From: Myxococcales bacterium
Lineage (GTDB): Bacteria; Myxococcota; B64-G9
Assembly (NCBI GenBank): GCA_012798435.1
Contig: JAAZNF010000051.1
Span: forward strand, 1 to 64,000
DNA: 64,000 nt
Direction of reading: 5' to 3'
A program made the translations under genes and the position numbers. The notes below the pieces were generated by a model. The model made no database searches and was not told where the DNA came from. It saw only the letters and a list, made by a program, of their open reading frames with translations. This document shows, one piece after another, positions 9,928 through 37,808 of this stretch (its first letter is position 1; every line of letters begins with the position of its first letter).

Positions 9928-10010
9928 GGAGCCAAGGCCTCCGTATGGTTGAGGTTTTCGAACCGGATGCCGATTACCACGGGGGCTCGATATGTTCAAG
10001 AGAATGTTGT

Positions 10011-10040: not shown

Positions 10041-10060
10041 ACGACTCAAGGGAGGAATTC

Positions 10061-13000: not shown

Positions 13001-14176
13001 ACCAACGACTCGTGCGATCCCGTGGACGGCTGCCGTCACGAGAACAACCAGCTCGGCTGCGATGACGGAAACGCCTGCAGCGTGGGTGACCAGTGCCAGG
13101 CCGGCGCATGTGTCCCAGGCGCCGCCCGCGATTGCTCCGACGGCAACGTGTGCACCGACGATGGCTGCGATCCGGCCAGCGGCTGCCAGCACACCAACAA
13201 CACCGTCGCCTGCGACGACGGCGAGCCGTGCACCGAGGGTGAGAGCTGCAGCCAGGGGATCTGCCAGGGCGGCCTGCCCGTCGACTGCTCCGACGGCAAC
13301 GTGTGCACCGACGACACCTGCCAGAGCGGCCTCGGCTGCCGGCACGCCAACAACACCGCCGCCTGCGACGACAACAAGCTCTGTAGCACGGGTGATCGCT
13401 GTCTGGACGGCGTGTGCGTGGGCACCGGCATCCTGGACTGCGACGACGGCAACGTGTGCACGGACGACGCGTGCGACGATGCGCTCGGTTGCCAGCACGC
13501 GGCCAACACGGCCGCTTGCGACGACGGCGACCCATGCACGATCGACGACAGCTGCGCGGCCGGCGTGTGCGGCGGGCTACCCAAGAGCTGCGCCGAGCTG
13601 GACTCGGCCTGCGCCACCGGTGTGTGCGACACCGCCAGCGGCGCGTGCCTGGCGGCCCCCAAGGCCGATGGGATAACCTGCGACGACGGCGACGTGTGTA
13701 CGGTCAACGACGCCTGCAACGCCGGCGCCTGCCTCGGCGCCGCCAACACCTGTGACGATGGCAACGCCTGCACCGACGACTCGTGTCAGGTGGGGACGGG
13801 CTGCATCCACCAGGACCACGAGCGGCCCTGCGACGACGGCGATCTCTGCACCCTCAGCGATCGCTGCCAGGCGGGTCAGTGCCGTGGCACCGCGCGGGAT
13901 TGTCAGGCCTTCGACGGGCCTTGTGCCGTGGGCACCTGCGACCCCGCCACCGGTCAGTGCCGCGCCGAAAACCTCGCCGACGGCACGTCCTGCGACGATC
14001 ACGATCCTTGCACCCGAGGCGACACCTGCCAGAACGGCCTGTGCACCTCCGGGTCCGACACCTGTGTCGAGGGCGGCGGCTGCGGCTGCGGCTCGGCGCC
14101 GCCGCTGGGCGAGCTCACCCTGCTGTTCGGTCTGGCATTGCCGCGGCTCCGCCGTCGACGCGACAACGACGCATGA
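10061..14176 (+). CDS. Giant Cys-rich surface protein with lamin-tail-like domain, MopE motif and MYXO-CTERM-like tail
   Basis: 1371 residues. The ATG at 10061 has a strong GGGAGGA site and begins a signal peptide (cleavage near ASA-HG, residue 27). Residues 28-270 form a beta-rich N-terminal domain. Residues 273-413 look like a lamin-tail (LTD) domain (GEWVVIRNRTSLDIDLSAY). Residues 476-1335 are about 31 Cys-rich repeats of the type CDDGNVCTDDSCDPATG-C. They are interrupted at about 884-941 by a MopE-type metal-binding motif (DQDRDGYG, DCDDDNGQINP, CADSLDNNCDG). The C-terminus has GCGCGS, a hydrophobic stretch and RLRRRR, the pattern of MYXO-CTERM sorting signals, so the protein is probably processed and anchored at the surface. 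Its stop overlaps the HD hydrolase gene. Confidence 0.85.
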   Translation: MESRRDRVMALVVGILLALPFSASAHGVILDGTSTEWSTRLPNASNLGIVVRDANGQGELVFQDASGDQRTDLGAGAAEDITVVRITVGSLGPVAGLAIFIRTATPPDANAQFQVAIDMDRIAGSGNLDFGGYGDTQVGSAARWEFLVQTRFTSCGNTICAATVYLADWTVLPGALAARGAEGVEIFVPATMLGIAGPPPAGMGLTIASFHSVDPVGDNTQDIGGPGVSNAIDVVTDYGDPATSGYPNTWSEVSDGVVDYHLSAFTDASGEAISPILIDRFAPAPSNTTSSGEWVVIRNRTSLDIDLSAYKLGDEETPVNSEGMYSFPAGAVVPAGGTYLVAQVADKFFSVFGVYPDAEFGSTVPAVSKMTKFAAWSNGDWGLNNAGDEVLLLNGSNTILDVAVYGSGVYPGVTAFTPAPSGTQVLVRWPTGSDTDDCQVDFANRGNQCLIDTDCADVCLGCFLFACLPQPAGFSCADADLCDGAESCDGNGACQAGSPVDCDDSNPCTSDVCDPSTGTCSHPPVDCDDADPCTVDGCDPSSGCTHAPKDCSDSDLCTTDSCEAATGTCLHAFKDCDDGSVCTDDSCNSATGECQYLFNTAPCDDANACTQNDACQNGTCAGQIISCNDNNMCSVDSCNPASGCEHIPAAPDTSCDLDSDLCTLDHCSGSDLSCSAGLPKDCSDGDVCTNDSCVPASGACQHAFNTASCDDLDPCTTDDRCNLGVCRGTAVSCDDGNFCTEDVCNPVSGECQHLNNTLSCNDGDACTVSDVCSNGLCVGQPLTCDDHNLCTDDSCDPASGCLYLPDDTNACSDGDNCTTDICSGGACVSTAIQCNDNDVCTDDSCNPATGTCQYLPNTASCDDGDACTTSDRCASGSCHGQPLDQDRDGYGPVACGGTDCDDDNGQINPSVFEGPLGSAVCADSLDNNCDGRTDDADLGCHTCVQDIDCSDGNVCNGVETCVNQACLAGTVLDCDDDNVCTNDSCDPVDGCRHENNQLGCDDGNACSVGDQCQAGACVPGAARDCSDGNVCTDDGCDPASGCQHTNNTVACDDGEPCTEGESCSQGICQGGLPVDCSDGNVCTDDTCQSGLGCRHANNTAACDDNKLCSTGDRCLDGVCVGTGILDCDDGNVCTDDACDDALGCQHAANTAACDDGDPCTIDDSCAAGVCGGLPKSCAELDSACATGVCDTASGACLAAPKADGITCDDGDVCTVNDACNAGACLGAANTCDDGNACTDDSCQVGTGCIHQDHERPCDDGDLCTLSDRCQAGQCRGTARDCQAFDGPCAVGTCDPATGQCRAENLADGTSCDDHDPCTRGDTCQNGLCTSGSDTCVEGGGCGCGSAPPLGELTLLFGLALPRLRRRRDNDA
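11486..14065 (+). repeat. About 31 coding Cys-rich repeats
   Basis: Each unit is about 24-28 codons and begins CDD/CSD/CND, with CT four to five residues later and two more Cys residues. Two unit types alternate: one ends SCDPATG-CxH with an NNT turn, the other DxCxxGxCxG. Units are diverged at both DNA and protein level, so this is an old expansion and not a recent slippage array. The MopE motif at about 12710-12880 separates the first 16 units from the last 15. Confidence 0.8.
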
Positions 14177-14799
14177 AGACCCGCCGCCAGCGTTCATCAC
14201 GGCTCGGGGCCGGAGAGCGGAAGATATTCGAGGCGCTCGACTTCGCCACCCGCGCCCACCGCGGCCAATACCGGAAGGGGACTCGCGTTCCCTACCTGTT
14301 ACACCCGCTGCGGGTGGCGCGACTGCTCATCGAGGCGGAAAGCGCCTGGCAGGTCGTGGTGGCCGGGTTGTTGCACGACACCACCGAGGACGCCGGGGTG
14401 CGGCTCGAGACCATTCGTCGACGCTTCGGGTCTCGCGTGGCCCGCCTGGTGTCCGAGGCCTCCGAGCCCGACAAGACCCTGTCCTGGGAGGAGCGCAAAC
14501 GCCGGACCCTGGCGGCTGTCGCCACCGCGAGCCCGGACGCCTTGCGGGTGGAGTTGGCCGACAAGCTGGACAACATCCGCTCCATCCGCGAAGACCTGGA
14601 GAAGGATGGCGACGCGCTCTGGGCGCGCTTTCGGCGCGGCAGAGAGGAGCAGCGCTGGTACTACCGGGGCCTGGCGCGTGAGTTCTCGCTTTCCGCGCGC
14701 GCGGAGCCGCTGCGGAGTCTGGCGCGGCTGTTCGCAAAAGAGGTCCGGGCGGTCTTCAGTGCCCGGCGGGAGCCGCCGAGACGCCGGCTGGCGCGGTGA
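14173..14799 (+). CDS. MESH1/SpoT-type HD (p)ppGpp hydrolase-like protein
   Basis: 208 residues. The ATG overlaps the stop of the giant Cys-rich gene. HD-fold metal motifs are in the RelA/SpoT hydrolase order: AHRGQYRKGTRVPYLLHPLRV (residues 33-53; first metal His), GLLHDTTEDAG (HD pair) and ELADKLDNI (distal Asp). No synthetase, TGS or ACT domain follows, so it is a stand-alone small alarmone hydrolase-like protein. Expected role: removal of the 3'-pyrophosphate of (p)ppGpp or a related nucleotide. Its 3' end overlaps the convergent L,D-transpeptidase gene by 44 bases. Confidence 0.8.
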   Translation: MKTRRQRSSRLGAGERKIFEALDFATRAHRGQYRKGTRVPYLLHPLRVARLLIEAESAWQVVVAGLLHDTTEDAGVRLETIRRRFGSRVARLVSEASEPDKTLSWEERKRRTLAAVATASPDALRVELADKLDNIRSIREDLEKDGDALWARFRRGREEQRWYYRGLAREFSLSARAEPLRSLARLFAKEVRAVFSARREPPRRRLAR

Positions 14800-15556
14800 T
14801 GCGGTAGCGCCCGTCTCGCTCCACGCTCACCTTCGGGGGAACCCGGTAGGACTCGAAGAGCAGGTATCCCGGCTGGAGTTCCTGCCAGAACTCGAAAAGG
14901 TCTTTCCGGTTCTCGTACCGCTCCCGGAGCCGCGCCATGCCCTCGTCGTCGAGCCGGTCGGGGAACAGGTGGACCTCGGGCCAGTGGCGGTAGCGGGCGT
15001 ACGAGTCCAGCGCGATGAGGTACAGCTCCTCGATGAGTGGGTTGGTGATGGGGACGCAGCCGATGGTGCAGCACTCGCCGTGGATCAAGATGTCGCCGCC
15101 GGGATCGGCGCCGAACGCCCGGAGGCGATCCGATGCGTTCGGGTAGCTGATGCGCAGCGAAAGGTGGAACATACTGGTGGGGTGGAAGGCCGTGACGCGG
15201 TAGAACCCCTCCGGCACTTGCAGGTCCCCGCGCCGGTGTTTCGGGCCCAGCTCGCCGGAGCGGGCGCACACCGGGTAGTCCTTGAGGTGGACGTACGGCT
15301 GGGTTCCGCTGGGCTGTACCCACAATTCGAGGATGTCGAGATCCTTGAACAGGCGCAAGAAGACCCTGCGCGGCGGGTAGGGGAGGGCCGCCTCGGCGAA
15401 CAAGCGCTGGATGTTGGGGTAGCGCAGGGCCCGGGCGTTCTTGACCCGGATCTCGCGCGCCTGCTCCTGCGTGGGGACGAACTCGGGCGCGGTCGCGGCC
15501 GGCGACAACGACGGAGCGAGCAAGCGGAACAGGAGGTAAAGGATGGTCTCGCTCAT
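14756..15556 (-). CDS. YafK-type L,D-transpeptidase
   Basis: 266 residues with an N-terminal signal/anchor sequence (MSETILYLLFRLLAPSLSPA). The catalytic YkuD motif is HGECCTIGCVPITN, with the nucleophile Cys in IGC, in the YafK/murein-transpeptidase arrangement. Such enzymes form or cut meso-DAP crosslinks, or attach or detach proteins at peptidoglycan. It lies 28 bases after the 98-aa gene and is the last gene of the ten-gene minus-strand operon, tail to tail with the HD gene. Confidence 0.85.
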   Translation of the reverse strand: MSETILYLLFRLLAPSLSPAATAPEFVPTQEQAREIRVKNARALRYPNIQRLFAEAALPYPPRRVFLRLFKDLDILELWVQPSGTQPYVHLKDYPVCARSGELGPKHRRGDLQVPEGFYRVTAFHPTSMFHLSLRISYPNASDRLRAFGADPGGDILIHGECCTIGCVPITNPLIEELYLIALDSYARYRHWPEVHLFPDRLDDEGMARLRERYENRKDLFEFWQELQPGYLLFESYRVPPKVSVERDGRYRITAPAGVSAAPAGH

Positions 15557-15584
15557 GAGGGTCGGGGCCCCGCCGCGCGCCCGC

Positions 15585-15881
15585 CTAGAGAAAGTCGGCG
15601 TTGCGCGTCCGGATGACGTCCTGGGTGAACTTCTGCTCCGGGAGCCGGAACGTCCGGAAGGAGTTTTTCACCCTCTTCAGAAAATACATGAGGTGCGGGT
15701 TCTTGATGTGTCCCTCGATGTCCAGGTTGTCGAAGCGGTACACCCGCACCGCGCCGGCCTTGGCCTCGGATCCGGGCGCCGGAGCGGGCTCGCGGGCATG
15801 CGACATGGGGGGCGAAAGCACCGAGGACAGAGCGAGGGCCGCGAGAATGCGGCGCAGCGGTTGGCGAAAGCCGCGCGTCAT
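15585..15881 (-). CDS. 98-aa secreted protein
   Basis: The ATG at 15881 overlaps the stop of the upstream TPR lipoprotein gene (ATGA) and has GGAGG eight bases before it. Signal peptide at residues 1-31. The mature part is about 65 residues with a strongly patterned core, VRVYRFDNLDIEGHIKNP, then basic and aromatic residues (FLKRVKNSFRTF) up to the C-terminus. No family recognised. Its place inside the operon of TPR proteins and barrels suggests a small periplasmic partner. Confidence 0.7.
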   Translation of the reverse strand: MTRGFRQPLRRILAALALSSVLSPPMSHAREPAPAPGSEAKAGAVRVYRFDNLDIEGHIKNPHLMYFLKRVKNSFRTFRLPEQKFTQDVIRTRNADFL

Positions 15882-17011
15882 TTTGATCCTCCGGGCGCGT
15901 TGCCGGCGCCGGGGCAATCCTTCGGGTGTTTGAGGCGCAGATCGTCCAGGTAGCCCCGCACGCGCTGCACCAGCTCGGGCTCGGTGCGGCCGGAGTCCAG
16001 GTAGCGCTGGAAGGCCTCGCAGGCCCAGGCCGGCTTCTGGCGGTACTGCATGTACAGGATGCCCAGGTTGAAGAGGCTCTCGGGGTGGGTGCGGTCGAGC
16101 CCCAGGATTTGCTGGTAGCTCTTCTCGGCGTTTTCCACCTCTCCCATCTGGCGCGCGGCCACGGCCTGGCCGACCAGGGCGGGCAGCAGCCCCGGGATGC
16201 GCTCCGCCGCTTGCCGGAAGGCGGCGGCCGCTCCGGCAAAGTCGCCGCTGTCGAGGTGGACGACGGCCTCGTTCAAGACCGCCTCCTCCAGGTAGGGTTT
16301 GCGGGAGGCGGCACGCTGGAACAGCTCCAGCGCCTCCTGGATCTTGCTGGCCTTGAGCCGCGCCAGGCCCAGGTTGTTCAGCACGCGCGGATCGTCGGGA
16401 GAAAGGGTCAGCGCGCGCTGGAACAGATCCTCGGCCATGGCGTGCCGGCCCTGCTCCGAGAAGATGGTGGCCAGGTTGTTGTAGGCCAGCACCTGGCGTG
16501 GCTCGTGGTCGAGGACGATGCGCGCCTGCTCGATGGCGCGCTCGTAGTCCCGCCGCACCCGCAGGATCACCGCCAGGTTGTTGCGGGCCTCGTGGTCGGT
16601 CGGGTTCTTGTCCAGCAGCTCTTCCAGGATGCGGCGGGCCTCGTCGTGCCGGCCCAGGCGGAGGTACAGCGCCGATAGGTTCAGGGAGGCCGGTCGATCG
16701 CCGGGTCGCAGGCGCAACACGGCGCGGTACTCGGCCTCCGAGCGCGCGAAGTCGCTGCCGCGTTCGGACAGCAGCGCCAGGGTGAAGTGCGCTTCGGCGA
16801 GCTCAGGATCCAGCTCCACCGCGCGCTGCAGCAGCTTCACCGCCTCGAAGTAGTTGGCGCGCGCCCCGGAAAGGTACTCGAGCGAGCGGTTGAAGGTCAG
16901 CACCGCTTCCCGCCGCGCCTCCGGCGCGGGCCCGCTCGGCCGCACCTCCACCCGGGCCGGGGCGCAGGCGCCGGCGAGGAGAATTCCGGCCAGGAGCGCA
17001 AGGCGCCTCAT
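15878..17011 (-). CDS. TPR lipoprotein (GltE/AglT-like by architecture)
   Basis: 377 residues. The ATG at 17011 overlaps the upstream stop. The lipoprotein signal is MRRLALLAGILLAGAC, lipobox LAGAC with Cys16. From about residue 40 it consists of consecutive tetratricopeptide repeats, for example DPELAEAHFTLALLSERG, NPTDHEARNNLAVILR and DPRVLNNLGLARLK, about eight to nine in all. The residue after Cys is Ala, which favours outer-membrane retention. Myxococcus GltE/AglT is a TPR lipoprotein in the gliding complex; the similarity noted here is of architecture and context, not a sequence search. Confidence 0.85.
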   Translation of the reverse strand: MRRLALLAGILLAGACAPARVEVRPSGPAPEARREAVLTFNRSLEYLSGARANYFEAVKLLQRAVELDPELAEAHFTLALLSERGSDFARSEAEYRAVLRLRPGDRPASLNLSALYLRLGRHDEARRILEELLDKNPTDHEARNNLAVILRVRRDYERAIEQARIVLDHEPRQVLAYNNLATIFSEQGRHAMAEDLFQRALTLSPDDPRVLNNLGLARLKASKIQEALELFQRAASRKPYLEEAVLNEAVVHLDSGDFAGAAAAFRQAAERIPGLLPALVGQAVAARQMGEVENAEKSYQQILGLDRTHPESLFNLGILYMQYRQKPAWACEAFQRYLDSGRTEPELVQRVRGYLDDLRLKHPKDCPGAGNAPGGSK

Positions 17012-20000
17012 CGCGGACCTCCCGCGGCGGGCGCCGGCGCGGGCGGCACCGGCAGCGGTTTCTGCACCAGCGGGAACACCGTCAAGGAGTCCGCCCAGCG
17101 GTACCCCGGGCGCACCTCCTCCTCGGGCGGGAAGCGCGCCGGATCGAGCTTGCGCAGCATCTGCAAGGTGCGCTGGCTCCACACGCTGAAATAACGGTAG
17201 CGCAGCGCGGTCTCGTGGCTGATGCCGAACGCCTTCAGGGCCTTGTCCTCGATGGGGAAGGCCAGCGCCTGGAGCTCCTGCCGGTAGATGTCCACCTCGT
17301 CCGGCTTGAGATCCGGCGGCGTGGGCGAGCGGTAGATGGCCTCGGAGAACTGCGCGTACATGTCCCCCACGCGGAAGAGCGCCGCCGAGGCCCACTCCAG
17401 GTGGCCCGCCGCCACCACCTGGGCGAACAGGCCCTCGGCCTTGGCGAGCAGCTGCGCCTTGTCCTTGAGCGCCTGGATCAGGCGCGTCTTGGGCGGCTTG
17501 AGCTCGATGCGACGGTATTCCTCGAAGACCTGCTCGGCCTGGAGGAAACGGCAATGTGCCGCGGCCTCCAGCTCGGAACCTTCCGGCGGTTTTCGCGCCG
17601 GAAAAGCGCCGCACTTCTCGATGAGTTCGCGCGCCCGGGCCGCCTTTCCCTGCGCAAGCAGCGCTCGGGCCAGCAGCAGGCTGGATTCGCGGACCCGCTT
17701 CTGCTTCTCGGCGTGTTTTTCCAGATAGGCCTGGAAGGCCCGCTCCGCCTCGGCGGGTTTCTCGCCCTGCATCAGGGCGATGCCCGCCGCCAGCAAGGCC
17801 TCCGGGGCCTTCGGGTGCCGCGGCCAGGTGCGGGTGAACTCCAGCAGCAGGCGGGCCGCGCCGTCGTAGGCTCCCCGGGCGTTCTCCAGGCGGGCGGCCA
17901 GGAGCAGCGCGTCCGGCGCGCGCGCGTCCTCGCGGAAGCGCTCGGCGAAGGCCGCGTAGTGGCGCGCCGACTTCTCGTAGTCGTACTGGCGCTCGAGCAG
18001 CCCGGCCATGACGATGCTGGCCTCGGCGGCCTGCGCCGGGTAGCGGGCGATGACCTGCTGGAAGGCCTCCACCGCGGCGGCCTTCTCCCCGGCCTGGTCC
18101 AGGGCCGTACCCCGGTTGAACAGCGCCTGGGGAGCCAGCGGGTCGGCCGGGAACTCCTTCACCAGGCGAAGGTACTCGGCGGCGGCCTGGGAAAAGCGCT
18201 GCTCTTTCAGGTGCTCGCCGGCCCCTCGGAAGATGGCGGCCGAGATGATCGACGGGAGCTTGCGAGCCATCTCGCCGGAGACGAAGGTCTTCTGCTGCTG
18301 GAAGGCGCGTGCCTCCTTCTCCAGGGACTTCCAGTCGCGCAGCCGGGTGAAACTGTCCAGGGCCAGATCGGCGGCCGCCTCGGCCAGGGGATCCTTGGGG
18401 TGGTTTCGGACCAAGGCCAGCAGATGCTCCGCGGCGCGGCTGAACTGGGCGCGGGCGTAGAAGATGCGGCCGCACTCGAAGCGCAGCGCCGGGAGCTTCT
18501 CGTCGGCCGACGACAGCCGGCCGAGCATCTCCACTGCGCGCACGAAACCCGCCTCGGCCGAGGACAGCACCTCCTCGCGGGCCGCGGGCTCGACCGGGCC
18601 GGCGCTCTTGGGTCGCAGGCGATCGTAGGCCAGCACCGCGGCATAGGCCGCCTCACGCCGCAGGCCAGGATCCTGGCCGTGCTCGGCGGCGGTGAGGTAG
18701 TTGAGGGCGGCGGGCTCGAAACGCCCCAGCTGGTACAGCGCCTCGCCCACCAAGAAGTGCATCCGCGGCGACTCGGCGGCGGAGGGGAAGATCTTGAGGT
18801 AGTCCTGGTAGGCGACGACGGCCACCTCGTAGGCGGCGGCGTCTTTCTTTTCCTGCGCCTGCTTGTGGCGCCGCAGGGCCACCTGGCGCAGGTTCTCCTC
18901 CGCCATGGCCACGGCCTTCTCCGCGAGCTCCGGCCGCTGGCGGTGCTCGGCCAGCCAGGAGGAGCCCGGGCCGAACCGCTCGGCCAGCCGGCGGCGCTCT
19001 CTCAGGGATTCCTCGATGCGGCCGCGGCGCTCCAGCGCCTCCACCACGCGGGCCTGGTGCTCCGGCCCGTCGTCGGCCAGCGGGAAGTTGTCCACCAGGC
19101 TGCGGAAGGCGTCCACCGCCTCGTCGAAACGCGCCTGGCGCAAGAAGACCTCGCCCAGCGAGCGCAGCACGCGGATGGAGTAGTCCTCGCCCCCCACCTG
19201 TCCCATGAAGCGCAGGGCCTCGCGCGCGCCGCCGGACTCCGAGAAGGTCAGGGCCAGATCCTCCAGGGCCTCGTTCTCCAGGTCGCCGGCGGCCGTCTGG
19301 ACCCGCCGGCCACTCTCGCGGCGCTCACGGGAGCGGCGCAGCACCTCGCGGAAACGCAGGGCCGCCTCCTGCGCCTGCCCCTCCTTGAAGAAGCACCAGG
19401 CCGCCTTGTACGCCGCCAGGTCGTACAGGGCGTTCTGGGGATCGTCCATGACCCGCTGGTAGGCCTGCCGCGCCTCGGCGTAACGGCCCTTGGTGAAGGC
19501 GTACTCGCCGAGCGCCAGGTGGGCGTCCGCGGCGAAGGCGCTGTTGGGGAAGCGCTTGAGCAGCGTCCGATAGATGGAGAGCGCGGTCTCCTCGTCGCCG
19601 TGCTCGTTGAGCGCGAAGCCGTACAGGTACAGCACCATGTCGGTCTGGGAGAAATCGGGGTGCTTCTCCAGGATCTGCTCGTACACCGCCAGGCTGGCCC
19701 GTAGGTCGATGCGCGGCTCGCCGGGGCGTTCCCGGATGCGGCCGGCGCGGAAGGCCTCGATCGATTCCTCGTAGGCGCGCATGCTGGCGAGGAGCTCGCG
19801 CTCGGACCGCTCCCACAGGAGCTCCGCCAGTCGGAACAGCGCGTCGGCGCGCTCGCGGGCGGCCGGCTGGTCTCGCAAGAAGCCGTTCAGCAGCTCGATG
19901 GCGCGCTCCCGCTCGGCCGCCACGGCGTCCTCGCGTCGCTGCATCTGCCGTTCCATCCAGGCGGGATCGCCCGGCCGGACGGGGCAGGGCTCCCCCGCCC

Positions 20001-20058
20001 ACAAGGGGGCGATCGCGCACATGGCCATGAGCAGCGCGAGCGAGCTAGTGGATCTCAT
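17008..20058 (-). CDS. 1016-aa periplasmic TPR protein (GltD/AgmU-like by architecture)
   Basis: Signal peptide at residues 1-21 (ending LWAG). The rest is almost entirely TPR and TPR-like helical hairpins, for example YAEARQAYQRVMDDPQNAL, FDEAVDAFRSLVDNFPLA and AQALFNRGTALDQAGEKA, probably more than 20. There is no catalytic motif, so it is a large protein-protein scaffold in the periplasm. It overlaps the gene upstream by 14 bases and the TPR lipoprotein downstream by four. Size and context recall AgmU/GltD of the myxobacterial gliding machinery. Confidence 0.85.
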   Translation of the reverse strand: MRSTSSLALLMAMCAIAPLWAGEPCPVRPGDPAWMERQMQRREDAVAAERERAIELLNGFLRDQPAARERADALFRLAELLWERSERELLASMRAYEESIEAFRAGRIRERPGEPRIDLRASLAVYEQILEKHPDFSQTDMVLYLYGFALNEHGDEETALSIYRTLLKRFPNSAFAADAHLALGEYAFTKGRYAEARQAYQRVMDDPQNALYDLAAYKAAWCFFKEGQAQEAALRFREVLRRSRERRESGRRVQTAAGDLENEALEDLALTFSESGGAREALRFMGQVGGEDYSIRVLRSLGEVFLRQARFDEAVDAFRSLVDNFPLADDGPEHQARVVEALERRGRIEESLRERRRLAERFGPGSSWLAEHRQRPELAEKAVAMAEENLRQVALRRHKQAQEKKDAAAYEVAVVAYQDYLKIFPSAAESPRMHFLVGEALYQLGRFEPAALNYLTAAEHGQDPGLRREAAYAAVLAYDRLRPKSAGPVEPAAREEVLSSAEAGFVRAVEMLGRLSSADEKLPALRFECGRIFYARAQFSRAAEHLLALVRNHPKDPLAEAAADLALDSFTRLRDWKSLEKEARAFQQQKTFVSGEMARKLPSIISAAIFRGAGEHLKEQRFSQAAAEYLRLVKEFPADPLAPQALFNRGTALDQAGEKAAAVEAFQQVIARYPAQAAEASIVMAGLLERQYDYEKSARHYAAFAERFREDARAPDALLLAARLENARGAYDGAARLLLEFTRTWPRHPKAPEALLAAGIALMQGEKPAEAERAFQAYLEKHAEKQKRVRESSLLLARALLAQGKAARARELIEKCGAFPARKPPEGSELEAAAHCRFLQAEQVFEEYRRIELKPPKTRLIQALKDKAQLLAKAEGLFAQVVAAGHLEWASAALFRVGDMYAQFSEAIYRSPTPPDLKPDEVDIYRQELQALAFPIEDKALKAFGISHETALRYRYFSVWSQRTLQMLRKLDPARFPPEEEVRPGYRWADSLTVFPLVQKPLPVPPAPAPAAGGPR

Positions 20059-21853
20059 CCGGCCACTCCTCGCCGTCGTAGGGCCAGTATTCCTGCGTCT
20101 CGTCGATCAGGCCTGCCTCGGCCAGCTCCCGCAGCAGCGAGAGCGGATAGCGGCCCACCGCCAGGTTCTGGATCTCCAGCTCCAGCGCCTGCTTGCGTCC
20201 GATGACGGAGTCGATGCGGCCGATCGACGATTGCCGGACCCAGGCCGAGGCGGTCTGGGTCACCTCCGCGGTGTAGTCCCGCTCGGCCGCCTGGGACAGG
20301 GCGTGCGAACGTTGCCACAAGGCCATGCCATCTTGTCCCGCGGCTCGCCACGCGGCCGCCTCCGCCTCCAGGTAGCGTACCAGCTCGGGCCGGGGCAGGT
20401 TGCCCAGCGGCAATGGGGCCGAAAGCTCGGAGGCGCGAAGCCGTTCGTCGGCGGCGCGCAGCCGTTGATCCGCCTCGTCCAGGACCGTCAGGTATTCTCG
20501 GATCGCCTGCGTGGCCGCGGGGTCGTCCGGCAAGGCGGACAGGCGCGCACGCAGGGCGCCCAGGCGTTGCCGCAGGTGCCGGGCGTGTGACGCCTCCGCC
20601 TGGAGGTTCTCGGTTAGCCGATCGCCGGGGTGTTCCGGGACGCGCGACGGGACCGGGCTGGCCAGGCGCTCGAGTTCCCGGCCGATCCAGCGCAGCCGGC
20701 CCAGGGTGCGCTCGATGCGCTCCGGTTCCGTCAGCGCCGCGCTCACGTCCACGTCCGGCGGCACCTGCGAACGCAGCGTCTCATTGGTGAAGATCTGCCC
20801 CGTGTTCCCCAGGGCCAGCAGACCCTGCGACGAGCGTAGCACCTCCTCGAAGATCGGCTCCGCTTCGTCGAAGCGACACTCGCCCAGCAAAGTGTACCCG
20901 AGCAGGATGCGCGCCATGGCAGCGCGCGGGAAACGCGGCGCGTGTTCGAACAGCGAAAGCAGCGTCCGGCGCGCCTCGGCGAACCGGTTCAGACGAAACA
21001 GCGACCAGGCCGCGCGGTACAGGGCCTCGGCGTGGCTCGGCGAGTCCTCGGCGATGACGCGGAACGCTTCGACCGCCCGGCGGTGCTCGCCCCGGTCGTG
21101 GCGCAGGCTGCCCAGCGCCAGCCAGGCGTGCTCGATGACCTGGACCGCGCCCGCGGACAAGAAGAACACGGTTCGCCCCGGCTGCACAGGACGCCGCACC
21201 AGCGCACACAGCAGGTCCTCGGCCGCGTCTTCCTTTCCCTCCTCGATCGCCAGGATGGCCCGCTGGTAGAGAGCGGCGGCTCCGTGCCGGCTGGCGCGGG
21301 AGACGGCGGCGAAGGAGGCGTCGGCCTCCTTGCGATGCCCGAGGAGCGAGAGCGCGCGGCCCTTGAGGTAGGCCACCTCGTCTCGCTCGTCGCTGGACAG
21401 GGAGCGCCGCACGCGCATGAGCAGCGACAACGTCTGCTCGAACTGTCCCGAGCGCACGGTGAGGTCGACCAGCTTGCGCAGCGCCGGAGCGCGGAAGGTG
21501 GAGGCGGGTTCTCGTTCCCACAGCTCGGTCAAGATCTCGCGGGCCCGCCCCAGGGCCCCCTCGTCGGCCAGGGCGCCGGCCGCCAGAAACCGCAGGTTGT
21601 CGGACAGCATGTCGCGAGGGAGCGAGCGCAGGCGGGGATCGAGCAGCGCGCTCAGCAGCCGGACGGCGCAGCTGCGCGCGCCGCCGTCCAGACACACCAC
21701 CTCCTGCTCGCGCAGCACGCGGGAAAGCTCCTCCTCCGTCGCCGACCCCGAACCCGCGCTGGACTGCTGCAGGAACACGTCCAGCGCGCCCTCCGGTCCT
21801 CCGGGCACCGGCAGGGGTGGCGCGAGCAGCAGGATGGCGGAAAGGAACAGCAT
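20045..21853 (-). CDS. 602-aa periplasmic TPR protein (GltC-like by architecture)
   Basis: Short signal sequence (MLFLSAILLLAPPLPVPGG). TPR-like hairpins occupy residues 60-340 (LGRAREILTELWEREPAS, EARRTLLSLFEHAPRFP), followed by a coiled-coil-rich region at about 380-500 (ERIERTLGRLRWIGREL, DEADQRLRAADERLRAS). The C-terminus is acidic (EYWPYDGEEWPDEIH). There are no enzymatic motifs. It ends with TAG inside the start of the 1016-aa TPR gene. It is an envelope scaffold of the same operon; equivalence to GltC is an inference. Confidence 0.8.
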   Translation of the reverse strand: MLFLSAILLLAPPLPVPGGPEGALDVFLQQSSAGSGSATEEELSRVLREQEVVCLDGGARSCAVRLLSALLDPRLRSLPRDMLSDNLRFLAAGALADEGALGRAREILTELWEREPASTFRAPALRKLVDLTVRSGQFEQTLSLLMRVRRSLSSDERDEVAYLKGRALSLLGHRKEADASFAAVSRASRHGAAALYQRAILAIEEGKEDAAEDLLCALVRRPVQPGRTVFFLSAGAVQVIEHAWLALGSLRHDRGEHRRAVEAFRVIAEDSPSHAEALYRAAWSLFRLNRFAEARRTLLSLFEHAPRFPRAAMARILLGYTLLGECRFDEAEPIFEEVLRSSQGLLALGNTGQIFTNETLRSQVPPDVDVSAALTEPERIERTLGRLRWIGRELERLASPVPSRVPEHPGDRLTENLQAEASHARHLRQRLGALRARLSALPDDPAATQAIREYLTVLDEADQRLRAADERLRASELSAPLPLGNLPRPELVRYLEAEAAAWRAAGQDGMALWQRSHALSQAAERDYTAEVTQTASAWVRQSSIGRIDSVIGRKQALELEIQNLAVGRYPLSLLRELAEAGLIDETQEYWPYDGEEWPDEIH

Positions 21854-21863
21854 GCGCCGGGCC

Positions 21864-22508
21864 TCAACGTGGCACGGTCTCGAACCGGGCCTTGAAGCTC
21901 ACCTTCCAGGTGCCGTCCGGCTCGTTGCCCTTGAGATCGGCGGCGTCGGGAGGATCTCCGTCTCCGTCCGCGTTGAACTCGGCGTCGGTGGTCGACTTTT
22001 CTCTCAAGTGGACCACCAGGCCCGACGCGGCCCGGTAGCCGGGCGGCCCCGCCTCGGGGTCCTGCGGCCCGCGGGCCGCCAGGCGCACCTCCAGCAGGTG
22101 TCGGCCGGGGCTGAGGAATCCATCGAAGAGCTTCAAGGATTCTACCGTGGCGGGGCCGGAGAACTCCTGGCGGAAGGCCAGCTCTCCATCGAGCAGCAGC
22201 GCGACCTCTACCAGGCGGAAAGGCCGATCGATCTCGGCCTGGAGCCGGACCCGCAGACGGGAGTCGAAGACTTTCTCTTCCAGCGCGGCCAGCCGGGCCT
22301 CCGTGGCCAGCAGCACGTCGCGGACCCGGCTGTGCTCCAGCGACAGCTCGCCCAGGGCGCGCACGTCGAGCGCCGGGGCAGGGGAGGCCGCGGGGGCGCC
22401 GTCCGGGCCGGTGCCGGTGGCGGCGCTCTCTGGCGGTCCGGCCCGCAGCATGCCCGCCGAGACCAGCACGCCGATGGCGATGCACAGTCGGACCTTGCGC
22501 CGTTCCAT
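21864..22508 (-). CDS. Periplasmic protein with coiled-coil and beta domain
   Basis: 214 residues. The ATG at 22508 shares a base with the upstream stop (TGATG). Signal peptide up to about residue 25 (GMLRAGPPES). A short coiled coil (LEHSRVRDVLLATEARLAALEEKV) is followed by a beta-rich domain of about 110 residues containing LLDGELAFRQEF and LSPGRHLLEVRLAARG, which resembles the PEGA or carboxypeptidase-regulatory class of small beta domains. Not recognised as a named family. Ten bases separate it from the 602-aa TPR gene. Confidence 0.7.
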   Translation of the reverse strand: MERRKVRLCIAIGVLVSAGMLRAGPPESAATGTGPDGAPAASPAPALDVRALGELSLEHSRVRDVLLATEARLAALEEKVFDSRLRVRLQAEIDRPFRLVEVALLLDGELAFRQEFSGPATVESLKLFDGFLSPGRHLLEVRLAARGPQDPEAGPPGYRAASGLVVHLREKSTTDAEFNADGDGDPPDAADLKGNEPDGTWKVSFKARFETVPR

Positions 22509-23815
22509 CAGAAACCTCCCTCGAAGGCCAAGCTTCCCACGAAGATCTGGCCGCCGGCGAAACTCGTCCGGGTGGGGCCGGCCACGCCGTTCCAGCCGGA
22601 GAAACCGTTGGGCGAGCCGATGCCTTCCCAGTCGAAATGCGTCTTCTGGAAGCAGAAGCCGACGTCCAGCGAGAAGTGCCGAAACAGGCCCAGCAGGCGC
22701 CGGTCCTCGGCCAGCCAAAGGACCCGCACCCCGGACTCGGCCCACCAGGCCAGGTACGAGGCCAGGTGCCGGTCGGCCGACCAGTAGGCGCCGGGCGGCC
22801 CGTCAGGATAGTCGTTGCGGTAGAAGCTGGCCCGGGTCTGGTGCCAGGCGCCGCCGGACAGGCGCGCCACCAGGCGTTCGAACAACCGCAACTGGAAGCC
22901 GAGCATCAGGCTCTCGTGTTCCACCCGCCAGTTGTCGCGCCCGTAGCCCGCGCCGGCCTCGAAGACTCCGCGGACGCCCACGGTCTTGCGGACCCGCAGC
23001 AGCCCCTCCAAACGGTGCCTCGCGCCGGGGTGGTTCTCCGGTTCGCTGCGAGGGACGCCGACGGCGGGGAGCGCCGGATCGTGTTGGCTCCACAACGTGA
23101 CCTTGCGGTACGGGCTCGCCAAGAACCCCTCCTCGATGGCCGCCACGAGATCCAGTCGCAGGTTGATCCCGGGAGTGAAGCCCTGCTCCAGAGAGGCGGA
23201 GAAGCGGTCCACGCGCACGTCCTCGGATAGCGGCAGGTCCGCCGGAAGACGCTCGGCGGGAATGACCAGCGACCGAAGCTGGCGCGCGTAGCCCACCTCC
23301 AGCACGGTGTCGCGGCCCAGGATCAAGGTCCGCGCCAGGATGGAGGGTTCATGGGTCTGTCCGTCCCAGGCGGTGCGGAAGCGGTACCCCAGGCGCAGCA
23401 GGCTGGTCCCGTCGTCCAGCACCACGGCGGCATCCGGCCCGTGCAGAAGGCGCTCCACGGTGAGCGGGCCGAAGAAGCCGTCCAGGCGATGCTCGATGTG
23501 CCGATCGGAGGCCACGCCGTACCCCGCCTCCAGGGCGATGCCGGAGAGGACCTCGACGGCCGCGCGGAGGCTGGATTCGGTCGAGGTCCCGGCCACGTCG
23601 GCGCCTGTTTCCGCGGCCACCACGATCCGAGAAGTCACCGTGTTGGGGGCGATGATCGCGTCCGGTGCGATGCGCGGCTCGCTCGGCCCGCGGAGCTGGG
23701 GCGGCGGGTCGAAGCGCATGAGCGGGTCGGCCAGCGATTCGCGCGACAGGCGCACCCCACCGGCGCAGCCCCACAGGCACGCCAGGAGCCCGAAGCCACA
23801 CAGCGCGCGGCTCAT
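22508..23815 (-). CDS. DUF3570-like outer-membrane barrel with lipoprotein-type start
   Basis: 435 residues. The ATG at 23815 overlaps the stop of the gene before it (ATGA). The N-terminus MSRALCGFGLLACLWGCAGG has Cys residues compatible with lipidation at Cys17. The remainder alternates in short beta strands with aromatic ends, as in porin-like barrels. The segment ASFYRNDYPDGPPGAYWSAD near residue 350 resembles the DUF3570 family signature. It probably sits in the outer membrane next to the two smaller barrels encoded upstream. Distant similarity only. Confidence 0.65.
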   Translation of the reverse strand: MSRALCGFGLLACLWGCAGGVRLSRESLADPLMRFDPPPQLRGPSEPRIAPDAIIAPNTVTSRIVVAAETGADVAGTSTESSLRAAVEVLSGIALEAGYGVASDRHIEHRLDGFFGPLTVERLLHGPDAAVVLDDGTSLLRLGYRFRTAWDGQTHEPSILARTLILGRDTVLEVGYARQLRSLVIPAERLPADLPLSEDVRVDRFSASLEQGFTPGINLRLDLVAAIEEGFLASPYRKVTLWSQHDPALPAVGVPRSEPENHPGARHRLEGLLRVRKTVGVRGVFEAGAGYGRDNWRVEHESLMLGFQLRLFERLVARLSGGAWHQTRASFYRNDYPDGPPGAYWSADRHLASYLAWWAESGVRVLWLAEDRRLLGLFRHFSLDVGFCFQKTHFDWEGIGSPNGFSGWNGVAGPTRTSFAGGQIFVGSLAFEGGF

Positions 23816-24471
23816 GGGAAGAACGGGAACCACACCCCGACTCCCAGCGAGAAGGCCAGGTTGTTGGTGAGGGATTGCTCGGCCAGGACCTCCTGGACGT
23901 GGATGTGATCCCGAAGCTCGATCCGGACCGAGAGCCAGGAATTGACGAAGACCTTCACGCCCATGCCCACGCAGTAGGTGAGGCCGACGGTGGTGCGGCT
24001 GTCGGTGACCCCCAGCCCGGCGAGGAAGAAGAAATCGAAGTGGGGCACACCCGACTGGAAGAACATGAACTTCCCGTGGAAGGGGTGCCACACCAGGTTG
24101 CCCAGGTAGATGCGGGCATCGTGATCCGGAAGGAAGGAGTACCCGGTGTAGCTTTGCACCGGGCCGGAGAGCGCCGAGGAAAAATAGGCCCAGGCGAAGT
24201 CCGCCTCCAGGGCGAAGTCCTCGTTCAGGTGGAAGCTGTAGGCCACGGAGGCCACCGGGCCGAGCCCCATGATCTCGCTGGAGTACACACCGCCCAAAAG
24301 GTCCAACTCGTGGCGCAGGCTCTTCGGAAAGTCGCGCTGCCCGATCCCCTTGCGCTCCCCGGTCTCGGTCTCCGGCGGCTCCGGGCAGGCGCCCATCGCC
24401 GGGTTCGGTGGCAGCGTGGTGAAGCCGAAGGCCGAGAGCAGCAGCAGGAGTCGGGTGAGGTGATGGAGCAT
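23812..24471 (-). CDS. Outer-membrane beta-barrel protein (myxobacterial type)
   Basis: 219 residues with a signal peptide ending near AMGA (residue 27). The mature part has regular amphipathic strands, such as HELDLLGGVYSSEIMGLGPV and NLAFSLGVGVWFPFFP, ending in the C-terminal aromatic residue (…FFP) typical of barrels. This pattern matches the myxobacterial outer-membrane barrel domain (TIGR04565 class) to which GltA and GltB belong. It starts seven bases after the previous stop. Confidence 0.75.
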   Translation of the reverse strand: MLHHLTRLLLLLSAFGFTTLPPNPAMGACPEPPETETGERKGIGQRDFPKSLRHELDLLGGVYSSEIMGLGPVASVAYSFHLNEDFALEADFAWAYFSSALSGPVQSYTGYSFLPDHDARIYLGNLVWHPFHGKFMFFQSGVPHFDFFFLAGLGVTDSRTTVGLTYCVGMGVKVFVNSWLSVRIELRDHIHVQEVLAEQSLTNNLAFSLGVGVWFPFFP

Positions 24472-24478
24472 GGTCTTC

Positions 24479-25249
24479 TCAGAACGACAGCATGAAGCCG
24501 CCGGAGAGCGCCAGCGCGCCCCAGTGTTGATCGGCGGTGAGGAGCACCAGGCGCCGCGCGTCCAGGCGCAGGTTGATCCCCGGCAGCGCGATCAGGACGC
24601 CCCCTCCGCCCAGTAGCATGAATTGCGTGCGGGAGGAAAAGAGCCGGACATCCTGGCCGGGCAGGCTGGTGCCGCCGCCGGCCCCGGCGGCCAGGAAGGG
24701 AACGATGAAGCGCCAGGGGCCCACGGCCACCAACAGTTCGACGGCGTAGGTGAGGATGTTCCCCAGCTTGCCGGGGGACTCGCTGGCGAAAAGCTCCAGC
24801 GCATAGTACTGGCTCGGCTGGTACCCGACCCGGAAGGTGAACAGGCCCTCGCTCTGTAGGGTGCCGCCCTGGAGAGAGATGGTCAGGCGGCCATCGCCGA
24901 AAGGGGAGTTCTGCGAGAGGCGCGCCAGCAGGCCCGGCTCGCCCGAACCCGCCTCATCCACCACCTCGAACGGCCACACCAGCTCGCCCAGCACCCAGCC
25001 GGAGATGCCGCGGGTCAGCCGGATGCGGTACCAGGCTCCGTCCGGGCTGCGATCGATCGCGTCGTAGACCTGGTCCCGGCCGACACGAGCGATCTCCAGG
25101 TACGAGCCGCCCGGCCCGCTCCGCACCGGAACGCTCTGCGCCATCACCCGCAGCTTCACCCGGACGGGGACACGGCTCATGCCCTGAGCTGCGGCGGCGG
25201 CCGGCAGGACCGGAACCAGGCAGAGCAGAACCCACGCCATTCGCTTCAC
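24479..25249 (-). CDS. SH3-domain outer-membrane barrel protein
   Basis: 256 residues. The GTG start overlaps the upstream stop (GTGA, 25249-25246). Signal peptide MKRMAWVLLCLVPVLPAAAAA. Residues 30-95 form a bacterial SH3 domain (VPVRSGPGGSYLEIARV, GAWYRIRLTRGISGWVL), a fold that often binds peptidoglycan. The C-terminal 150 residues form a small barrel ending LALSGGFMLSF with a terminal Phe. It probably links the outer membrane to the cell wall. The pairing with the 219-aa barrel recalls GltA/GltB. Confidence 0.75.
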   Translation of the reverse strand: MKRMAWVLLCLVPVLPAAAAAQGMSRVPVRVKLRVMAQSVPVRSGPGGSYLEIARVGRDQVYDAIDRSPDGAWYRIRLTRGISGWVLGELVWPFEVVDEAGSGEPGLLARLSQNSPFGDGRLTISLQGGTLQSEGLFTFRVGYQPSQYYALELFASESPGKLGNILTYAVELLVAVGPWRFIVPFLAAGAGGGTSLPGQDVRLFSSRTQFMLLGGGGVLIALPGINLRLDARRLVLLTADQHWGALALSGGFMLSF

Positions 25250-25695
25250 GGGGATGCCCCTCCCGAGCGCAGCCAGGCCAGCACCTCGGTCTCCTCGGCG
25301 GGGGTGAGGGCCGAGAGCCCGGGGTGGGCCTCCTCGCGTCCGCTGCCCCAGCGGACGAGCGCGCTGCGTTCCGGGATGCTCAGATCGCAGAAGGACAGCA
25401 CCAGAAAATAGTCACCCAAAAAAGGCTCGGGAAGTTCCCGTGGATGGGAGATGGCGCTCTGGGGGGGGAACGGGGAGGAAGCCGGGCGAAGCCGGAAGGT
25501 TGTGTCCCGGGCATGGCAGTCCGCCAGGGCGCACGAACCCACGAGGTGAGGCTGGACCGCTGTGGCGAACACCACGGGATCCGGAACGCGCATGTTCCTG
25601 CTCAGGGTTTCCTCTCCGGAATCTATGGTGCCGCAGGCCGCCGAGAGCACGCCAAAAAGCCATAGGAGACATGCGGTTCTGTTCTCTTCTCTCAT
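25246..25695 (-). CDS. Small lipoprotein with CX4CH motif, first gene of the envelope operon
   Basis: 149 residues. MREENRTACLLWLFGVLSAAC gives a lipobox LSAAC with Cys21. The mature protein has a motif CALADCH (CX4CH), similar to divergent c-type cytochrome-like domains of myxobacterial proteins, and a C-terminal helix LTPAEETEVLAWLRSGG that is also typical of such domains. No axial-ligand Met can be assigned, so haem binding is uncertain. It is the promoter-proximal gene of the ten-gene operon; the position is like that of the lipoprotein GltK. The ATG lies only nine bases after the -10 box and lacks a ribosome site. Confidence 0.7.
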   Translation of the reverse strand: MREENRTACLLWLFGVLSAACGTIDSGEETLSRNMRVPDPVVFATAVQPHLVGSCALADCHARDTTFRLRPASSPFPPQSAISHPRELPEPFLGDYFLVLSFCDLSIPERSALVRWGSGREEAHPGLSALTPAEETEVLAWLRSGGASP

Positions 25696-25704
25696 CGGGA
25701 GGCG

Positions 25705-25733
25705 ACGATATTATGGCTCGCGCCGCGTGTCAA
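25705..25733 (-). promoter_or_regulatory. Promoter of the ten-gene envelope operon
   Basis: Minus strand perfect TTGACA (25733-25728), 17 bases, TATCGT (25710-25705). Transcription would start about 25698, only 0-3 bases before the ATG at 25695, giving a leaderless mRNA. Confidence 0.55.
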
Positions 25734-25821
25734 CCGAGAGGCCGCAGTGGCTCGATCCGGGTATTGGACGTTGCAGCCGGCTCGTAACGTGTTGTTTTGG
25801 ATGAACTAATCGTTATTTTTC

Positions 25822-25850
25822 TTGACTTTTTCACTGCGATTGATGACAAT
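25822..25850 (+). promoter_or_regulatory. Promoter of the 50-aa basic gene
   Basis: TTGACT (25822-25827), 17 bases, GACAAT (25845-25850) in an AT-rich stretch. The leader to the ATG at 25921 would be about 64 bases and ends in AGGAGGAGAA. Confidence 0.55.
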
Positions 25851-25920
25851 GCTCTCCATGCCTCGCTCGGACGAAGTCCCGGCTTCACATCTGTAAACTT
25901 GCAGAATCAGAGGAGGAGAA

Positions 25921-26073
25921 ATGGGACAAGTCTCCAAGAAAACTTGCCGAAAGACGGGCAGCGTGAAAAATTCTGCAACAAAGAAAAAAAGCCTTGCGGC
26001 GTCGACGAACAAGAGAAGTCCGAAGGTCGTGGACGACAGACAGCTTCTCAAAGACTGGGAGCATGTGACCTGA
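25921..26073 (+). CDS. 50-aa Lys-rich basic protein
   Basis: The frame reads MGQVSKKTCRKTGSVKNSAT … RQLLKDWEHVT and stops at TGA 26071-26073. Thirteen of 50 residues are Lys or Arg, concentrated in the first 40, and the last ten are amphipathic. The support is contextual: a near-perfect AGGAGGAG site four bases before the ATG and a good promoter upstream. It resembles short basic tails that bind nucleic acid, but no family is recognised. A longer frame in another register (25797-26084) has no ribosome site and an implausible composition. Confidence 0.6.
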   Translation: MGQVSKKTCRKTGSVKNSATKKKSLAASTNKRSPKVVDDRQLLKDWEHVT

Positions 26074-26123
26074 CGGGAGATTGAGGCGGGGGAGGATCGA
26101 ACACCGTTGGTCGAGGAGGGGGA

Positions 26124-27020
26124 TCACCTTTCAGGAGCCGGGGTTTTGGGGAGGAGTTTTCTCAGTTCTTCCTGCTTCTTTTCATCAATCAGCTTGGTCG
26201 CTTCTTGCAGCTTCTTCAAGTCGCTTCGAATTTGAAGGTCCTGGTATATCCGATATCCGAGCCAGATTCCGATACCGAGGAGGATCACCAGGGCGAGCAA
26301 GAGGACGTCTCGGAGGCTCAGAGTGAACCGCTGCCGCATGACTCTCGATGAGCTGGCCATGGGCGCCGGCCCGCTGATGATGAGCACCTTCTTTTCTTTC
26401 TCATGGCTCCGGCTCCGGCGGGAGGACGAAGTCCCCTCGAATTCGCTGATATCGAGCGGCTGGATGCCGCCGGTGGTCCCGGTGGCGAAGCGCGGTCTTT
26501 CGCGGCCTTCGGCCGGTCCCGTCGGCACACCCTCCCGCGGTGTCGGCGGTCTGGGGATCTGGCCGGACGGGGTACTCTTCTCTTTCGCGTAGACGGGAGG
26601 AACGGTCTTTTGCGGCGCCGTCGAGTTTTCCATCTCTTCGAAAATGCTCTCCAGCGGTTCGCTGGGCTGTCTGGATTTCTTGCTCCCGGCCGGAGGTGTC
26701 GCGCGTGAGGGTATGGGCGTGGGCTTGAGGAGTCTCGGGCTCGTCACGGGAGGTGCGAAGATCGGGAGGAAATCCTCGTCGGAGGACTGCGGCAGATCGA
26801 TGTCGATGTCGATGGCGTCTTGCGCCGCCGTGGAGTCTTTTTCCGAGCTCCTCGAGCTTCTGGGATCCCTATCCGGCTCGTTCGTCCGCTCCTGAACGAC
26901 CGTGGTCTCGAGATCCGACTCCAGCTCGGACTCGAGTAGCTCGTGGAGCAGGCGCGCCCTGGGTTTCGCACGCTTCGCTTCTGCCTGCGTCGAGTCGTCT
27001 TCGTCGTTCTTTTGGGCCAT
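26124..27020 (-). CDS. Acidic/disordered single-pass membrane protein
   Basis: 298 residues from the ATG at 27020. The frame is open further upstream, but that part overlaps the promoters and the glyQ start. Residues 1-225 are low-complexity, rich in Ser, Pro, Glu and Asp (DAIDIDIDLPQSSDEDF), and probably disordered and cytoplasmic. One transmembrane helix lies at about 245-267 (VLLLALVILLGIGIWLGYRI), followed by a short coiled coil (LKKLQEATKLIDEKKQEELRK). Base composition is less GC-rich than its neighbours. No homology recognised. Divergent from glyQ. Confidence 0.7.
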   Translation of the reverse strand: MAQKNDEDDSTQAEAKRAKPRARLLHELLESELESDLETTVVQERTNEPDRDPRSSRSSEKDSTAAQDAIDIDIDLPQSSDEDFLPIFAPPVTSPRLLKPTPIPSRATPPAGSKKSRQPSEPLESIFEEMENSTAPQKTVPPVYAKEKSTPSGQIPRPPTPREGVPTGPAEGRERPRFATGTTGGIQPLDISEFEGTSSSRRSRSHEKEKKVLIISGPAPMASSSRVMRQRFTLSLRDVLLLALVILLGIGIWLGYRIYQDLQIRSDLKKLQEATKLIDEKKQEELRKLLPKTPAPER

Positions 27021-27036
27021 GAGGAAACCTTGAAAA

Positions 27037-27065
27037 ATGCTATTCCAATCCATCGGATACTGCAA
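27037..27065 (-). promoter_or_regulatory. Promoter of the 26124-27020 gene
   Basis: Minus strand TTGCAG (27065-27060), 17 bases, TAGCAT (27042-27037). The leader would be only about ten bases. Confidence 0.45.
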
Positions 27066-27110
27066 GAATACGGAAGCATTTTTCTCAACGCCGGTGGCCT
27101 TTTCAAGTGC

Positions 27111-27139
27111 TTGACTTGGATCGGGGTCGATGCTAGCTT
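27111..27139 (+). promoter_or_regulatory. Promoter of the glyQ gene train
   Basis: TTGACT (27111-27116), 17 bases, TAGCTT (27134-27139), 26 bases before the glyQ GTG. AAGGGA provides a ribosome site in the short leader. Confidence 0.55.
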
Positions 27140-27165
27140 GCGCCGCGAAAACAAGGGAACCCACC

Positions 27166-28065
<900 letters not shown>

Positions 28066-37805: not shown

Positions 37806-37808
37806 GCG

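Follow-up and report, generated by a model that had tools for sequence, protein, structure and literature searches.

An envelope operon of the Agl-Glt/Nfs type with distinct outer-membrane genes in a Myxococcota genome

The stretch of DNA described here (termed the window) consists of bases 1–64000 of contig C102 (JAAZNF010000051.1) from a Myxococcales bacterium (assembly GCA_012798435.1, termed G000), whose genome is 5.05 Mb long, is in 129 contigs and is 97% complete. On the minus strand, positions 25695–15585 carry nine genes for envelope proteins, g1–g9 (Table 1), which overlap or nearly abut. The junctions show overlaps of 4, 4, 1, 14, 4 and 4 bp and gaps of 7 and 10 bp. An earlier reading made from the letters without database searches (the sequence-only reading) had placed an operon of envelope genes on this strand; all of its open reading frames are confirmed and the gene order is conserved among genomes of the class (B64-G9). 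Several products contain tetratricopeptide repeats (TPR).

Immediately upstream of g1 is a sigma70-like site, TTGACA-17-TATCGT, at positions 25733–25705. A scan of both strands of positions 14600–27300 gives three promoter-like sites, compared with a mean of 0.5 in shuffled sequences. A single minus-strand promoter for the operon is plausible but unproven.

Table 1. Genes of the operon and the adjoining gene g10
Gene	Position	Strand	Description
g1	25246..25695	-	lipoprotein of 149 amino acids (aa), lipobox by eye, CX4CH motif; first operon gene
g2	24479..25249	-	SH3_3 domain and barrel-like C-terminus (barrel by look)
g3	23812..24471	-	GltA/GltB-type outer-membrane barrel
g4	22508..23815	-	lipobox, RE-x-LxDPxM head, DUF3570 barrel, 16 predicted strands
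g5	21864..22508	-	small periplasmic protein; a homologue is encoded just before the GltC-like gene of the mglA-linked (G4) cluster
g6	20045..21853	-	GltC homologue, TPR, 602 aa, C-terminal YWPYDGE-W-DE motif
g7	17008..20058	-	GltD homologue, TPR, 1016 aa
g8	15878..17011	-	GltE homologue, TPR lipoprotein
g9	15585..15881	-	GltF homologue, 98 aa
g10	14756..15556	-	YafK-like L,D-transpeptidase

The AglRQS motor of Myxococcus makes contact with GltG or NfsG and sets the Glt or the Nfs complex in motion, and the nfsA-H genes form a single cluster that is homologous to gltA-H, is without I, J and K, and shares the motor (PMC3858216). The sequence-only reading had the Myxococcus genes in separate clusters; this holds for glt, but nfs is one cluster with AglRQS elsewhere (PMC3858216). 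GltA and GltB are outer-membrane barrels that stabilize the periplasmic GltC (PMC4488436). Among the Myxococcus paralogues, a role is described for Glt (gliding) and Nfs (spore coat), and Luciano et al. give none for G4 and G5; these authors proposed that new functions arose in duplicated Glt cores (PMC3169522).

For the hhalign comparisons, family alignments of the operon proteins were set against reference families drawn from Glt-type clusters in this genome, in two relatives and in one further genome (G136); decoys were included. We take G136 to be a Myxococcus-like genome on the basis of a GltC that scores over the cut-off and of its cluster content. Which of its clusters is G4 (on the mglBA side) and which is G5 was provisionally assigned by locus-tag positions. 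The names mglA, mglB, glycyl-tRNA synthetase and enolase are presumptive labels given by the look of the sequences.

The g3 protein gives 110 bits with TIGR04565 (cut-off 60), and hhalign values of 99.6% to GltB and 99.1% to GltA. The small g9 protein shows 90.1–94.5% to three GltF groups with decoys at 3.9% or less, and its alignment agrees with a GltF homologue. The g5 family displays 93.6% (E 2e-7) to the protein encoded ahead of the GltC-like gene of the G4 cluster and 0.1 and 0.2% to two unrelated families; by BLASTP, g5 matches L063_11174 at 2e-5.

Searches of Pfam and NCBIfam with g6, g7 and g8 yield TPR families, and also the GltC and GltE models below their cut-offs: g6 scores 45 bits with NF033756 (GltC equivalog, cut-off 450) and g8 scores 116 bits with NF033758 (GltE equivalog, cut-off 225). 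By hhalign, g6 is related to the GltC of G4 (99.5%), G2 (99.1%) and G3 (98.8%), with TPR decoys at up to 94.7%, and g8 to GltE (99.8–100%), with decoys at 67–97.9%. With decoys at these levels the TPR comparison is weak when taken alone, and the Glt case therefore rests on ranking, on a full-length tree, on the non-TPR proteins GltF and GltG, and on gene order.

In a ranking of the genome by NF033756, g6 (34.9 bits) stands below the GltCs on contigs C59, C92, C1, C9 and C51, and other TPR genes have 16.6 bits or less. The C-terminus of g6 is EYWPYDGEEWPDE; a counterpart, YWPYDGEYWRDELG, is found near the C-terminus of the C59 GltC. A profile of the g7 family (seven orthologues) was run over this genome and G136, and the GltDs ranked first after g7 itself. 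The best segments of the GltDs in this genome give 544 bits (C9), 291 (C92), 271 (C51) and 152 (C59), and the four GltDs of G136 give 510, 295, 221 and 187 bits; other TPR proteins reach at most 66 bits in G000 and 91 in G136. That the Glt match comes from TPR likeness in general was rejected, the controls being three other TPR proteins and, for g6, the D and E proteins of the operon as well. As judged from profile comparison, ranking, tree and synteny, there is a strong case that g3, g6, g7, g8 and g9 are homologous to an A/B-type barrel, C, D, E and F of the Agl-Glt core, as the sequence-only reading had proposed for the envelope half of that machine.

In a tree of 17 GltD proteins, that of the window and six orthologues form one clade (100/100). 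This clade is sister to G4 and not within it (100/98), and is apart from G1, G3 (Nfs) and G5. Versions of all these clusters occur elsewhere in the genome. In the Glt-type (G1/G2) set, the A/B barrels and the start of GltC are at the end of C1, and the end of GltC with D, E, F, G and H is on C59. An Nfs-type (G3) set, in which one barrel, C, D, E, F and G were found, lies on C92, and a G5-type set on C51. The G4-type set, on C9, has mglB and mglA, with the genes of an AglRQS-type motor located between F and G. By its sequence relationships, then, the operon is a fifth Glt/Nfs-type lineage in this genome. In kind it is an ordinary relative of Glt and Nfs; its novelty is in the lineage and in the outer-membrane proteins. 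A search of one literature collection found no description of this further Glt paralogue and no later functional work on G4 or G5.

The class sample comprised nine genomes, G000 included. The order g1–g9 is intact in six of them (G000, G002, G003, G004, G005 and G007, the g1 of G007 being cut by the contig end), and is interrupted by contig ends in G001, G006 and G008. The conserved order excludes chance. A search with g6 was positive in 8 of the 9 genomes, and in G001 only g1–g4 and the GltG locus described below were found; the operon is present, at least in part, in all nine. Across the phylum (195 genomes), orthologues of g6 that score more than 300 bits are restricted to the class, and weaker matches (56 bits or less) occur in 67 genomes outside it. 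A contig scan with two short peptide patterns returned six loci of the class and one weak Verrucomicrobiales match, its silence outside the class being weak evidence.

The M. xanthus G4 cluster (gltD homologue MXAN_1922) is among the closest known systems, having the sister GltD clade and the closest GltC by hhalign. It also shares a g5-type protein before GltC and the order [p233]-C-D-E-F-G. Unlike it, the operon is not beside mglBA-like genes and has g1, g2, g4 and a GltA/B-type barrel; a Pfam scan of 25 other proteins of the window detected no GTPase family. The operon also differs from the G4-type set of its own genome in being without AglRQS between F and G.

In this genome a GltG of a distinct subfamily is encoded outside the operon, on C105 (positions 51052–52416, 437 bits), and is followed by a small lipoprotein and then a GltH-like barrel. 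The C105-type family shows 99.4–100% to GltG by hhalign. The barrel family (that of L068:11036-11662) shows 97.2% (E 4e-11) to GltH and 43.5% to NfsH. With the G003 protein as query, the subfamily GltG is found in all nine class genomes (316–675 bits, leaving out the self match; the next-best match has 118.8), and it forms its own clade in a GltG tree (100/100). In G003 and G005, GltG lies within about 100 bp after GltF and is followed by the lipoprotein and the GltH-like barrel; G002 and G004 have it on the operon contig, at about 1.7 and about 5 kb, and in the other draft genomes it is on a different contig. In G000 the operon is at least 14.7 kb and the C105 locus at least 8.1 kb from the contig ends; since neither locus is at a contig end, they are not close neighbours. 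The GltH-like barrel adjoins the same gene (presumably enolase) in six of the nine genomes. The simplest history would be one long ancestral locus that was split by rearrangement in this genome. Absence of motor and GltG genes from such an operon can be due to rearrangement rather than loss, which matters for annotation.

A second, shorter GltG-like gene (L009, 8299–9699) adjoins the GltH-like barrel of the C59 Glt-type set.

Two AglRQS-type motors are present, on C9 and C12. The AglR of C12 has a BLAST identity of 51% to the M1 AglR of G136 and 36% to M2, and that of C9 has 50% to M2 and 38% to M1. The G4-type set here has the M2-type AglRQS between GltF and GltG (L012, 16317–18392, and L082, 1418–2794). 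The M2 motor of G136, by contrast, is encoded away from its G4 cluster (L063, L081). The M2-type genes inside the G4-type set may indicate the motor used by G4.

The sequence-only reading had described the operon as having no motor. This is correct for the operon itself, but with GltG on C105 and two AglRQS-type motors elsewhere in the genome it is a matter of location, as it is for nfs. That reading had also named the outcome that would speak against it, i.e. no Glt similarity and no GltG, GltI, GltJ or AglRQS in the genome; similarities, a GltG and AglRQS homologues were all found.

We regard it as fairly probable that the nine genes specify the outer-membrane and periplasmic components of a fifth Agl-Glt/Nfs-type machine, which is motor-driven and has a cargo unlike that of gliding. 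Motor coupling, cargo and function of the complex are inferred by analogy. The C105 GltG would cross the inner membrane and couple the complex to an AglRQS-type proton-driven motor (C9 or C12), in the way that NfsG couples to AglRQS in Myxococcus. The periplasm would be bridged by the TPR proteins GltC, D and E, g2 may contact peptidoglycan via its SH3 domain, and g1, g2, g3, g4 and the H-like barrel would constitute an outer-membrane platform. The motor would drag this platform along the envelope and so move or place a surface cargo. A secreted polymer or an outer-membrane module appears a more probable cargo than gliding adhesins, because a separate gliding-type set is present.

Nfs, which serves spore-coat transport in M. 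xanthus, resembles the operon as a cluster with barrels and C–H and without motor genes, and gives a precedent for a motor acting in trans (PMC3858216). Unlike Nfs, the operon has a separate GltD clade and G and H outside it, and the genome has its own Nfs-type cluster on C92. By BLAST, nothing in the nfs stretch of G136 matches g1, g2 or g4.

Absence of motor genes from the operon and from the surroundings of the C105 GltG would also fit a static, motor-independent structure built from the Glt core, i.e. a trans-envelope scaffold or an exopolysaccharide/lipoprotein export complex, with g4 as the pore, the TPR proteins as a periplasmic guide and no part for AglRQS. The subfamily GltG is however kept in 9/9 genomes, and GltG is the motor-contact subunit in both Glt and Nfs (PMC3858216). 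There is also no polysaccharide synthase among the operon genes. We consider a static structure rather unlikely.

A second gliding machine, i.e. a complex that drives surface motility in this class, is suggested by the homology to the gliding core and by the MglA/MglB-like genes and M1-type AglRQS in the genome. The operon displays homologues of the A/B, C, D, E, F, G and H core of Agl-Glt (gltA-K, aglRQS), counting those on C105, and its start, lipoprotein-barrel-barrel-...-GltC, recalls cglC-gltB-gltA-gltC (PMC4488436). Unlike Agl-Glt, the operon is outside the G1 clade of GltD and is sister to G4, and a separate G1/G2-type set (A/B barrels, C, D, E, F, G, H) is present on C59 and C1. Polar mutations in the G3, G4 and G5 gltD genes of M. 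xanthus had no effect on motility (PMC3169522). A role in gliding is very improbable; the operon is not the gliding set itself but a further paralogue beside Glt-type and Nfs-type clusters.

Several observations weigh against a fifth motor-driven machine. GltG and the motor genes sit outside the operon. For GltJ there are tentative matches only (88 bits on C75, 85 bits on C9). With hhalign, g6 gives 94.7% to the GltC of G5, no closer than decoys. The GltD tree program flagged an unusual letter make-up in six rows, including that of the window, and the GltG tree leaves the relation of the subfamily to other GltGs unsettled, with long G5 branches flagged. Of the barrels that the sequence-only reading had set beside those of Glt, g3 is of the GltA/GltB type but g2 shows no clear relation to a Glt barrel (best hhalign value 37%, to NfsB). 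The orthologous loci of the relatives (six genomes checked) are all from metagenome assemblies.

The outer-membrane parts of the operon, namely the SH3-barrel protein g2, the DUF3570 barrel g4 and the CX4CH lipoprotein g1, seem to be new, the known versions apparently being without them. The SH3_3 domain of g2 (PF08239) scores 27.5 bits with a cut-off of 27. The CX4CH motif of g1 is kept in all nine class genomes, and a g1 profile finds matches in these nine and in 5 of 184 other genomes (E 1.4e-9 to 6.5e-4); g1 has no match in Pfam or NCBIfam. A structure model of g1 (predicted local distance difference test, pLDDT, 65) has no fold match at E 0.001, and c-type cytochromes are among 29 insignificant matches. 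A cytochrome c assignment by fold was rejected for want of a significant match, though the model is weak.

DUF3570 is detected in all seven aligned members of the g4 family, with a best value of 9.8e-14; the g4 of the window is just below the cut-off (2e-5). A g4 profile matches in the nine class genomes and, over partial length, in 3 of 184 others (7e-8 to 4.5e-10). An AlphaFold2 model displays 16 strands behind a low-confidence head that begins with the lipobox. This model is the best of five, built on a six-sequence alignment, with a mean pLDDT of 63; three of the five are below 37. Foldseek returns varied outer-membrane barrels, headed by Occ porins and siderophore receptors; BcsC (6tzk) ranks 17th and 4y25 (which we take to be PgaA) 26th. 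In VIA-align the top rows are BcsC, 4y25, BcsC, CdiB, PelBC and BcsC (Z 19.9–18.9, with 19.9 to both 6tzk and 4y25), OmpF-like porins following at about 16; rows within 1 Z of each other are ties, and a common fold is no proof of function.

Five of these six rows (BcsC three times, 4y25 and PelBC, Z 18.9–19.9) are TPR-barrel exopolysaccharide export channels, which favours the static export complex considered above. Against this, CdiB ties with them (Z 19.3), the Foldseek order favours Occ porins and siderophore receptors, and the model has the modest mean pLDDT just given.

The g4 protein is also like the DUF3570 barrels of the DUF4266-DUF3570-thioredoxin-ApbE redox clusters (PMC8238504). A genome of another Myxococcota family (G151) has a thioredoxin-DUF4266-DUF3570-CX4CH lipoprotein-ApbE cluster (L110, 7093–14136), in which the CX4CH lipoprotein adjoins DUF3570, as g1 and g4 share one operon. 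Because the g1 and g4 profiles both match in this cluster, the g1–g4 pair may descend from a redox cluster like that of G151. Unlike such clusters, the operon has no ApbE or thioredoxin among its genes, and the flavinylation motif [ST]GA[ST] is absent from all seven g4 proteins tested, which rules out flavinylation of g4 by the known motif. The DUF3570 protein of G151 is likewise without [ST]GA[ST], despite the ApbE in its cluster. A remnant of DUF4266 in the g4 N-terminus is doubtful, with only 20% by hhalign, although the spacing C...R-x-x-L...M-x-F looks similar. A proton-driven Glt-type machine with a captured outer-membrane module of redox or polymer-export type (the g4 barrel and the CX4CH lipoprotein), which it moves or gates across the cell surface as a motor-coupled conduit and not for motility or spore coating, is a possible but doubtful reading.

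A fifth lineage with different outer-membrane proteins supports the view of the Glt core as a reusable platform, and g1, g2 and g4 are concrete candidates for what sets the cargo.

The sequence-only reading counted ten genes in the operon; nine are the envelope genes it listed, but the tenth, g10, encodes a YafK-like L,D-transpeptidase that is not beside the operon in the relatives read. It scores 134 bits with NF040599 (LdtF/DpaA/YafK), below the equivalog cut-off of 365. An orthologue is present in 8/8 relatives of the class, and none was found in G136 at E 1e-4. In seven of the eight relatives (all except G006) the neighbourhood of g10 was read, those of G001 and G007 being on contigs shorter than 7 kb, and no operon gene was seen beside the orthologue. 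In G002 the orthologue faces, in convergent orientation, the HD-domain gene that also faces g10 in the window (49% identity). A breakpoint between g9 and g10 is therefore probable; it seems that the operon has moved beside g10.

A peptidoglycan-remodelling machine, in which g10 is a functional subunit, opening or anchoring the cell wall on behalf of the complex, would account for its position 28 bp downstream of g9 on the same strand, for the SH3_3 domain of g2, and for the presence of g10 orthologues in all eight relatives. The separation of g10 from operon genes in the seven relatives, and its pairing with the HD-domain gene in G002, make this the most remote of the readings considered. As a subunit of the complex, g10 was rejected on the same separation; it is probably a bystander.

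Upstream of g1, on the minus strand at positions 26124–27173, is an open reading frame of 349 aa whose product has, by eye, a single hydrophobic span and gives no Pfam match at 1e-5. Its homologues are also upstream of g1 in G001, G005 and G006. A tRNA scan of the 64-kb window found none. About 11 kb from the operon, positions 37011–41217 (plus strand) encode an ABC-2 permease, an ABC ATPase, a glycosyltransferase and a bacterial sugar transferase; this is likely an ABC-type surface polysaccharide locus, and a link to the operon is not implied. On the other side, positions 9992–14176 (plus strand) encode a 1394-aa protein with many repeated Cys-rich units (VCTDDSC...). Its C-terminal tail is hydrophobic, arginine-rich and sorting-like, and a relative is found in G005 (L103, 544–4794).

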